Assembly (NCBI GenBank): GCA_030606485.1 | Contig: JAUWGH010000007.1 | Span: 1 to 64,000, forward strand | Direction: 5' to 3' | Source: Promethearchaeota archaeon | GTDB taxonomy: Archaea > Asgardarchaeota > Lokiarchaeia > Sigyniarchaeales > SOKP01 | DNA length: 64,000 bases | In this document: positions 58,452 to 62,101 of the stretch, piece after piece | Numbering within the stretch: position 1 is the first letter of the stretch | Layout: each line of letters begins with the position of its first letter | The notes under the pieces: generated by a model | What the model saw: the letters and a program-made list of their open reading frames with translations, nothing else | What the model was told of the DNA's origin: nothing | Database searches by the model: none | Program-made: the position numbers and the translations under genes

Positions 58452-59387
58452 TTAATGTTCTATATTAAAATTTAATTTTGATATTAGCTCTTTATACCGA
58501 GTTCTTACAGTTGCTTCTGTTATTCCAGCAATATCTGCAATTGCCTTTTGTGTGCGACGTTCATCAGTTTGAATTGCGGCGATGTAAAGTGAAGCTGCAG
58601 CTAAACCTGTAGGTGCTTTTCCTGCAGTAATATAATGTTTTTGAGCTAACTGTAGGATTTTTGCAGCTTTATTTTGAGTTCTACCTGATAAACTCAAATC
58701 CGCACAAAATCTTGGAATAAAGTCGATTGGTGATGATACTCTTATATTTCTTATTTTTAATTCTTTTAATATTAATCTATAGCAACGCCCCAACTCTTTT
58801 TTTGTAATGGAAGAAAATTCGATAAAATCGTCTAAAGTCTTAGGTAATCCCTTTAATCTACAAGTTGTGAATAATGAAGCTGCCAACATAGCTTCAATCG
58901 ATCGACCTCTTATTAAATTCTTATATACCATTTTTCTATATATTATTGCAGCCGATTCTTTAATAGAACTTGGTAGATTTAATTGAGAACAATATCTATC
59001 TAATTCGTTCATCGCATTTGCCAAATTTCTATCAATGGATTTATGTATCCGTGATCGAGTATGCCATTTTCTCAATCTATGAACTTCGGCTTTCATTTTT
59101 GGGCTAATTTTTTTACCATGTGCATCTTTATCTTTCCAATCGATTGTTGTGCTTAAACCTTTATCGTGTAGTGTAAATGTTGAAGGAGCTCCAACTCGAA
59201 TTTTTTTAGCTTTCTCTTCTGATGAAAATGCTCTCCAATCCGGTCCGGAATCAATAATTCTTTGATTAATTACTAATCCACATGTGTTACAAATGATTTC
59301 TCCTCTAGATAAATCTGAAATAACCGTGAAATTTCCACATTCCGGGCATTTCTCTAAATTTTTCTCGTTTTCATCTTGAGTAGTCAC
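58452..59387 (-). CDS. tfb: Transcription initiation factor TFB (TFIIB)
   Basis: TFB recruits RNA polymerase to the TBP-promoter complex. The 311-residue protein has the N-terminal zinc ribbon CPEC...CNTCG (C14, C17, C33, C36), the B-reader/B-linker region DWRAFSSEEKAKKIRVGAPSTFTLHDKGLSTTI and two cyclin folds (about 115-205 and 210-305), with IADIAGITEATVRTRYKEL as the BRE-binding helix-turn-helix. The layout and length are standard for archaea. Other TFBs may exist elsewhere. Confidence 0.97.
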   Translation of the reverse strand: MTTQDENEKNLEKCPECGNFTVISDLSRGEIICNTCGLVINQRIIDSGPDWRAFSSEEKAKKIRVGAPSTFTLHDKGLSTTIDWKDKDAHGKKISPKMKAEVHRLRKWHTRSRIHKSIDRNLANAMNELDRYCSQLNLPSSIKESAAIIYRKMVYKNLIRGRSIEAMLAASLFTTCRLKGLPKTLDDFIEFSSITKKELGRCYRLILKELKIRNIRVSSPIDFIPRFCADLSLSGRTQNKAAKILQLAQKHYITAGKAPTGLAAASLYIAAIQTDERRTQKAIADIAGITEATVRTRYKELISKLNFNIEH

Positions 59388-59558: not shown

Positions 59559-60050
59559 ATGACATTAAATATGTTTAGGAGTATTCATGGACCGCATTGT
59601 TTATTAAGAGCTTTTAAAACTATTTGTCCCAAATGTAAAAATGATGTGTTCTATTGGGAATGCTCTCATGGATCTAAGGTATTTTTTGAATATCCAATAT
59701 ATGGGCGATTAATTCGGCATAAATGTAAAAAACACTCAACTAAAGAAAACTCAAAAAAAAAAAACCACATTAAGGTAAAAATCCCATTATTTATAATAAA
59801 AGATAATTTTAGTTGCCCAATTTGTGGAAAAATTTTTAGTAAAAAAAATCAACTTGTTGATCACATAAAACAGTTAAAAAAAAGTGATGAAGCTCATCAT
59901 AACTTCTATAATAATAAACTTAATTTAAAGACGGATTCAGAAATACTCAACTATGATTTAAATAAAAATTTAAGTGAAAATGAGAATAAAAATCATTACA
60001 AACCGACTTTTGGTAAGATTACAATTGTCAATAAAAAATCAAGTAAATGA
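59559..60050 (+). CDS. Zinc-finger protein with N-terminal ribbon and a C2H2 finger
   Basis: A 163-residue basic protein. The N-terminal half has CPKCKNDVFYWECSHGSK and GRLIRHKCKKH, an archaeal zinc-ribbon-like segment. The second half has a classical C2H2-like finger, FSCPICGKIFSKKNQLVDHIKQLKKSDEAHHNF, whose last His pair is shifted. It is probably a nucleic-acid-binding protein. It is divergent from TFB across a 170-base promoter region. Confidence 0.72.
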   Translation: MTLNMFRSIHGPHCLLRAFKTICPKCKNDVFYWECSHGSKVFFEYPIYGRLIRHKCKKHSTKENSKKKNHIKVKIPLFIIKDNFSCPICGKIFSKKNQLVDHIKQLKKSDEAHHNFYNNKLNLKTDSEILNYDLNKNLSENENKNHYKPTFGKITIVNKKSSK

Positions 60051-60137: not shown

Positions 60138-60743
60138 ATGTCTATTGATTATGATGGAATTGTATCTGAATTGATGCAAAGAGATCCATCTATAATTGCC
60201 GTTGCGGTTATAACAGGAGCTCAAGATATTGTTTATTCAACAGATAATTGGGATATTAGCTCAGATATTAGTAAGGTTTCATCTGCATGGAGTTCAATGA
60301 ATGCTCAGTTTGTAATAATTTCTGGTGTAAAATACTCAATGTTACAATGTACTATTGAAAGAATGGTATGTACTAACATAAAAGGGCAGGGACACATTGT
60401 TGGGGCTAAGGATGACGAGCATAAAATTATTGCATATGTCGAACCCGAAGCGGATATAAATGGTGCTTATATGGATACAGCTCGAATCTTAGATAAAATG
60501 AGTTCAAAAACCCCTTATTTGGATGAAAATGCCCAATTAGGAACTTCCCAACCAGTAGCTCCCGTTTCTGGAGGAGTAGCTATCGATCCCCAACTAAAAA
60601 GTGAAATTACGGCTTTTCTTGATTGGATAAAAGCCGAAGATGGCCTTTCGGGATATCTAAATTATTATCTTCAACAAAATAATGCAAATATCATGAGCGA
60701 ATTGGCAAAAATTTATAGCGATTTACGCAATATTTGTCAATAA
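60138..60743 (+). CDS. Roadblock/longin-like protein with C-terminal helical tail
   Basis: A 201-residue protein. The first 115 residues follow a roadblock/longin-type order: helix (DYDGIVSELMQRD), strands (IIAVAVITGAQDIVYSTD), helix, FVIISGVKYSMLQCTIERMVC and KIIAYVEPEADI strands, closing helix. A glycine/proline-rich linker (SQPVAPVSGGVAIDP) and a helical tail follow. The ATG at 60138 is preferred to the TTG 60129 in the track. Assignment is from predicted topology only; the gelsolin-like membrane protein gene lies next on the same strand. Confidence 0.5.
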   Translation: MSIDYDGIVSELMQRDPSIIAVAVITGAQDIVYSTDNWDISSDISKVSSAWSSMNAQFVIISGVKYSMLQCTIERMVCTNIKGQGHIVGAKDDEHKIIAYVEPEADINGAYMDTARILDKMSSKTPYLDENAQLGTSQPVAPVSGGVAIDPQLKSEITAFLDWIKAEDGLSGYLNYYLQQNNANIMSELAKIYSDLRNICQ

Positions 60744-60919
60744 TTGGTATTTAACGCAATTTTTTAAATGAATATACTTGTATTTTCTTTTTTCCTTTAA
60801 AATTCTTTTTTAACAATTTCTAATTTTAAATTTTAACTATGAAAATAAAAAATTATTTTAATCTCATTGTTTCTTAAATTAATAAATAGTAATGAAAACA
60901 AATTAATTGGTGAAATCAA

Positions 60920-62101
60920 ATAAAGCTATATTTAATTCAAGATAAAGAAATCATATCTTCTAAAAAATTGTCTTATGATAATTTTATATTTATATTTGAT
61001 GCTCAAAATAAAATTGGGGGTTTTTGGAAAGGTGAATTTGCTGAAGAATTTGATGAAATTTTTGCTAAGGAAATTATAGAAAAAATTATTAAGAAATTTG
61101 GTGACTTAGATTTTAGGATTTTCGATACATTAGATCCAAAAAATGAAGAAGATAATAATAACAAAATCTTAAAAATTGAAATCTTAAAAAGATTACCTAA
61201 TAAGACCCTTTGGAAAATTAAAAGAAGGATTTCGTCCTTATTTGTATCTAAAAAAATTAGGTCTAAAATTGGAGAATTTCGCACATTTGATAGTTCATGG
61301 AAATGGCGTAGAGACTTATTAAATTTAGAAAATATTAGTAAATTGTCAATTACAAATATATTAATTATGTTTATTACCATAATCTTTATTTATAATATAG
61401 GAATTTTACAATTGTATGATGGAACTCTTTCTTTTTTGTTTATTATTTTTCTTTTATTAGCTTTAACTATAGTTAACTTAATATTTGTTTTATTTCCAAT
61501 GAGATTTCCTGGAGTTATAAAAAAAATAATTAATTTAGAAGATAAGGAACATGAAGAGGAAGAAGTCCAGACAAGAAAAATTGAAGAAATAAAGGTCATT
61601 AAAGAACCTCTTAAACCATCTATCCCTATCTTACCTTCAGAGCAGAAATCAGAAGAATCGTCAAAACTTCGATCTTTAATTAAATCTACTACTCCATTAA
61701 AAAAAAATGAAAATGAAAAAACAAAAAAAGAAAAAGAAAAATCATTAGAATCTCTTAAAGATGGAAAATCTGACCTAAAGATCCCAGAAGTTCCAGTAGC
61801 TCCTCCAAAACAGATAATCAAACTCGATTCCCCCGAAGTTTCTCCCGAACTCTTAAAAAAAATAACTAAAGGAGAAACTAAAGAACTAAAATATGTGCTT
61901 GTTAAATGTGATAGATGTAATAAAATAATTGCATTTCCTGTTCCGAAGAAAAAAGTTCTTAAATCAGAATTACCTGTTGTTCCCATTTCATATATTCATG
62001 GAAAGGGAAAGGAAAGACATTGTTTAACAGCTCATGTTGATCATGATTTTGATATTAGACGACGGCGGGTTTCTGATGTTGTATTTGAAGAATTGGAGTA
62101 A
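60920..62101 (+). CDS. Gelsolin-like domain protein with two transmembrane helices and C-terminal zinc-like domain; probable AUA start
   Basis: The track starts at TTG 60968, but the frame is open to 60914. Reading from AUA 60920, with GGTGA (60909-60913) six bases before it, adds KLYLIQDKEIISSKK and completes a gelsolin-type pattern: LSYDNFIFIFD, NKIGGFWKGEFAEEFDEIFAKEI, FGDLDFRIFD. Two hydrophobic helices follow around residues 147-170 and 175-198, then a proline/lysine/glutamate-rich linker and a C-terminal domain with KCDRCNK and HCLTAHVDHDFDIRRRR. Gelsolin folds bind actin in eukaryotes and Asgards, so an actin-membrane link is a reasonable guess. Domain identity is from pattern only. 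Confidence 0.55.
   Translation: MKLYLIQDKEIISSKKLSYDNFIFIFDAQNKIGGFWKGEFAEEFDEIFAKEIIEKIIKKFGDLDFRIFDTLDPKNEEDNNNKILKIEILKRLPNKTLWKIKRRISSLFVSKKIRSKIGEFRTFDSSWKWRRDLLNLENISKLSITNILIMFITIIFIYNIGILQLYDGTLSFLFIIFLLLALTIVNLIFVLFPMRFPGVIKKIINLEDKEHEEEEVQTRKIEEIKVIKEPLKPSIPILPSEQKSEESSKLRSLIKSTTPLKKNENEKTKKEKEKSLESLKDGKSDLKIPEVPVAPPKQIIKLDSPEVSPELLKKITKGETKELKYVLVKCDRCNKIIAFPVPKKKVLKSELPVVPISYIHGKGKERHCLTAHVDHDFDIRRRRVSDVVFEELE

Follow-up and report, generated by a model that had tools for sequence, protein, structure and literature searches.

A gelsolin-fold protein with a predicted membrane hairpin is encoded beside a profilin in Lokiarchaeia

The gene at 60920..62101 (plus strand) of the window, which is the whole 64,000-nucleotide stretch of Lokiarchaeia DNA analysed here, raises the question of whether a gelsolin-like protein could act on actin at the membrane of these archaea. 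An earlier note, made from the sequence alone, had proposed that a protein of this kind is encoded here. The frame was found to be open (393 aa; the coordinates include the stop) and all of the proposed parts are present, namely an N-terminal domain, a predicted two-helix membrane hairpin, a charged linker and a small C-terminal domain. Full or near-full orthologues were found in four congeneric genomes, at 98, 94, 84 and 50 % identity, and the whole-gene dN/dS was 0.37 relative to G002. Hence, the gene is more than a chance open frame.

The codon at 60920 is ATA, not ATG, GTG or TTG, and the first conventional start is a TTG at 60968. ATA is the probable start codon because it and the preceding GGTGAAATCAA are retained in the congeneric genomes G001–G003 (four species of the genus when that of the window is included), as is a Shine–Dalgarno-like GGTGA read directly at 60909..60913 (plus strand), 6 nt before the ATA, and because relatives from other families have ATG in the alignment column of the window's ATA. 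A start at TTG 60968 is a possible but less favoured alternative, given that G002 has ATG in place of this TTG and that the 16 codons between the two show non-synonymous changes only; with this start the gelsolin-like domain would lose its first strands.

That the N-terminal domain (residues about 1–92; 60920..61195, plus strand) is gelsolin-like, as had been proposed, was supported by both profile searches and structure prediction. A profile of ten orthologues gave five matches in total, with the Asgard ProGel (7c2f) at the top (0.0066), followed by villin (two entries) and Loki2DGel. When five related membrane proteins were added to the profile, villin was matched at 7.2e-10 and Thor ProGel at 2.6e-7, followed by many gelsolins. 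The AlphaFold2 model, with pLDDT mostly >80 over residues 1–100, consists of four strands, a helix (46–60), a further strand (64–68) and a second helix (79–91). In a Foldseek search with this model, gelsolin-family structures made up nearly all of the 50 matches listed, one of which is titled merely as an actin complex, and the top match, ProGel 7c2f (E 4.9e-4, probability 1.00), was alone among the 50 in falling below E 0.001. On the profile matches and the predicted structure, then, the domain is a gelsolin fold and not a longin, roadblock or other fold. It includes the WxG signature, which reads FWKG across the window's genus and IWKG in G009. The single window protein matched no Pfam family above that family's own cut-off. 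As PF00626 (Pfam) gave no match to it at E up to 10, a result in keeping with the detection limit for a divergent member, we use the term gelsolin-fold rather than gelsolin. A basic helical region with a conserved WRR follows in the alignment and the AlphaFold2 model (residues about 93–137; 61196..61330, plus strand).

The two transmembrane helices of the earlier proposal were recovered by hydropathy, which placed membrane segments within about residues 138–197, and by AlphaFold2, which gave helices at 136–162 and 168–191. With the alignment, these define a predicted membrane hairpin with helices at about 138–162 and 168–191 (61331..61495, plus strand), and the sequence that ends helix 2, FVLFPMRFP, is strongly conserved. 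In the window protein, the short loop joining the two helices has no Lys or Arg and the flanks are basic on both sides; under the positive-inside rule, both ends of the hairpin are probably cytoplasmic. The long charged linker is also present and is variable in the alignments (61520..61768, plus strand). One stretch of the window's linker (LRSLIKSTTPLKKN) resembles a WH2 motif, but this candidate was rejected because its LKK is not retained in G001–G003 and the stretch is missing from G004.

The gene upstream (60138..60743, plus strand) is, from profile searches, a profilin with a C-terminal extension. It resembles the Asgard profilins over the full profilin domain (5zza, the solved Loki profilin-2, 1.7e-19; 7pbh, 5.3e-16; 5yed, 8.7e-13; 5zzb, 3.4e-12), and 10 of the 13 members of its family matched the Pfam profilin (best 6.1e-5). 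An initial guess that it encodes a roadblock protein was dropped in favour of these matches. The extension, of about 75 residues, distinguishes it from the four Asgard profilins and is conserved, with many invariant residues and no Pfam match. The extension is related to a stand-alone 66-codon frame of the window's genome (L121; G000:C10:635173-635325). On another contig, this genome encodes a second profilin that lacks the extension. Though a PF00235 search of this genome at E 0.001 returned nothing, profile A4 detects profilins there, so the PF00235 search is too insensitive here. Profilin-like domains were also seen in open frames of about 400–450 aa in several Lokiarchaeia (G031:C2:4540-5001, G033:C16:240376-240834 and similar). 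The earlier note had proposed a search for Asgard actin; an actin gene (PF00022, E 2e-133) was found in the genome, on the contig that carries 60920–62101.

The first gene of the conserved set, identified by domain search and from the neighbourhoods, encodes a C2H2-like zinc-finger protein (59559..60050, plus strand), and the intergenic gaps in the window's gene set, 87 and 176 bp, are compatible with a single transcript but do not prove one. A TFB paralogue (58452..59387, minus strand), TFB-like by eye, is a conserved neighbour that varies in position and orientation.

Zinc-finger gene, profilin and gelsolin/C-domain gene(s) keep this order well beyond the window. In a neighbourhood comparison, profilin adjoined the gelsolin half, the C-domain or both in 40 genomes (five from the window's genus, 30 others from its family and five from a second family), and in G038, G040 and G044 a C-domain copy begins about 20 to 530 bases 3′ of profilin. 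The linkage therefore covers about 43 genomes from one Lokiarchaeia order, and three families of that order have the C-domain near profilin. Eleven genomes carry the gelsolin half, and profilin is directly upstream of it and co-directional in all ten that are checkable, the contig of the eleventh (G009) beginning just before the gene.

The gelsolin-membrane half and the C-domain form a single protein in the window's genus. The two are split in the second family (Harpocratesius repetitus FW102, three Prometheoarchaeum MAGs and one further MAG). There, the gene immediately 3′ of profilin encodes the gelsolin-membrane half alone and, on contigs reaching far enough, a divergent C-domain is encoded separately beyond the zinc-finger gene. 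Because the separate halves flank the same profilin in these relatives, the window gene is best described as a fusion of linked parts. Fused and split forms grouped around a single profilin, as here, are a standard sign of functional association, though no proof of contact. In the second family, the stand-alone C-domain proteins (L035, L036 and L039) open with a stretch that by eye is ribbon-helix-helix-like, for which Pfam gave no support. A weak match in G006 (L044) was discarded, as it covers the membrane/charged region only; by eye, a cluster of ubiquitin-like, E1-like, E2-like and JAMM-protease-like genes at this locus lies near a gelsolin-like protein.

The C-terminal domain (61859..62098, plus strand) had been described as zinc-like, and this was upheld by residues C330, C333, H360, H367 and D374, which are invariant across 37 sequences, and by a confident model of five strands with core pLDDT >90. 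The motif given earlier as HxxxHVDHDF is present but was one residue short, the actual sequence being HCLTAHVDHDF. The Cys/His pattern suggests that the domain may bind zinc. It has no sequence relative in the PDB, no fold match at E 0.001 and no family above cut-off in Pfam or NCBIfam, known zinc domains included, and, taken on its own, appears undescribed. A profile search (E 0.001) found it in 113 of the 228 genomes of the phylum. The window's genome has three further, weaker copies, two of which end proteins of about 195 aa (L122 and L123) whose N-terminal part is longin-like by eye. Tandem copies lie near a small-GTPase-like gene, again by eye, in g5 and g9 genomes (L030, L033 and L034).

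ProGel (7c2f), the best match in sequence and structure, is like the window protein in having a single gelsolin-fold domain. However, ProGel is a single-domain, gelsolin/cofilin-like protein, whereas the window protein adds the membrane hairpin, the linker and an unrelated C-terminal domain. Lokiarchaeia have 2DGel and '1DGelX' gelsolin-fold proteins (PMC9433394), the latter presumably consisting of one gelsolin domain plus other sequence, and this class may already include proteins like the window's. The available text of that source leaves X undefined, and membrane anchoring and profilin linkage go unmentioned in it. The claim that membrane anchoring sets the protein apart from other Asgard gelsolins was, however, overstated. 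Other proteins that combine a gelsolin-like domain at the N terminus with predicted membrane helices after it occur in related Lokiarchaeia (L062, L067, L070 and L077) and twice more in the window's own genome (L125, G000:C6:249537, and L126, G000:C8:360666, each with several predicted helices), these assignments resting on weak profile scores of about 1e-4 to 1e-7. All six have more predicted helices than the window protein and no C-terminal metal-like domain, and profilin was not detected in the neighbourhoods examined. A search light on subscription literature found no report of a membrane-anchored Asgard gelsolin or of a profilin–gelsolin gene pair.

We consider that the gene encodes, with a probability of roughly one half, a membrane-anchored actin-regulatory adaptor that works with the upstream profilin and places actin or profilin–actin at the membrane. 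This reading draws on the gelsolin fold and the predicted membrane segments of the protein, on the identification of its neighbour as a profilin, and on the conserved neighbourhood with its occurrence of both split and fused forms. The two-helix hairpin would anchor the gelsolin-fold domain on the cytoplasmic side of the membrane, with a flexible linker bearing a proline-rich motif and the small metal-site-like domain, and the profilin encoded upstream would supply or sequester actin monomers. With the gelsolin-fold domain as the putative actin side and the linker and C-terminal domain as the partner side, the two together could concentrate actin or profilin–actin at the membrane, and the effect may be one of tethering, capping or assembly.

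The main rival, which we regard as possible though somewhat unlikely, is that the gelsolin-like domain has lost its action on actin and serves as a structural or protein-docking part of a membrane scaffold, a role like that of the gelsolin domain in Sec23/Sec24; the main business of the module would then lie with the extended profilin-fold protein and the C-terminal domain. Within the window's family, most of the other genera in which the C-domain was seen have it after profilin and lack the gelsolin half; in G017 the C-domain is joined to membrane helices without the gelsolin domain. The gelsolin half is, thus, not essential to a module whose profilin and C-domain occur together in three families, and its absence from so many relatives makes a loss of actin binding conceivable. 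The domain is also strongly divergent, most of the second family having Y-x-G or Y-x-N in place of WxG. Set against this, the best sequence and structure matches are to the actin-binding ProGel, 2DGel and villin, a profilin adjoins and an actin gene is present.

The proline-rich motif, PEVPVAPPK (61784..61810, plus strand), is conserved at about 40 residues N-terminal to the CxxC, and a sharper form of the membrane-adaptor reading, compatible with it, would make this motif a ligand of the neighbouring profilin in a membrane assembly platform, by analogy with Ena/VASP- or formin-like recruitment and without homology. We rate this as unlikely. Among 29 non-redundant C-domain proteins, 28 have the motif, compared with 1.6 expected from shuffled flanks; as related sequences inflate the count, these figures serve as a guide, not as a test of significance. 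Its distance to the CxxC is mostly constant and it is found beside profilin genes, but the g5 and g9 loci have C-domain proteins with the motif away from profilin. In the available text of PMC8410842, polyproline is bound by some Asgard profilins, but Loki profilins-1 and -2 are reported not to bind polyproline motifs. Weakest is the view that an unrelated membrane protein merely happens to lie 3′ of profilin, which is very unlikely because, though prokaryotic operons may hold genes without shared function, the order of zinc finger, profilin and gelsolin half or C-domain persists across families at 25–35 % identity while the outer flanks change, and the two halves occur both separate and fused.

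The adaptor reading bears on an actin cytoskeleton that in Lokiarchaeia spans cell bodies and protrusions (PMC9834061) and on Asgard nucleation machineries described as yet undiscovered (PMC9433394), both statements as given in the available text of these sources. No membrane-linked partner of Lokiarchaeia actin was found described in a search light on subscription literature. To our knowledge, no membrane-bound actin assembly factor is known in Asgard archaea. In the boldest form of the reading, about which we are doubtful, profilin–actin would be recruited by a profilin-linked membrane platform that combines a gelsolin fold on a hairpin, a proline-rich docking motif and a novel metal-binding domain from Asgard archaea. 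Such a platform would, if real, be the archaeal equivalent of actin assembly factors bound to membranes. The conserved set of profilin, membrane-anchored gelsolin fold and new domain supplies named candidates and, as the split form is found in MAGs of Prometheoarchaeum, a genus with a cultured member, their localisation and binding are testable. The gene pair suggests, though it falls short of proof, that actin assembly is controlled at the cell membrane in these archaea.
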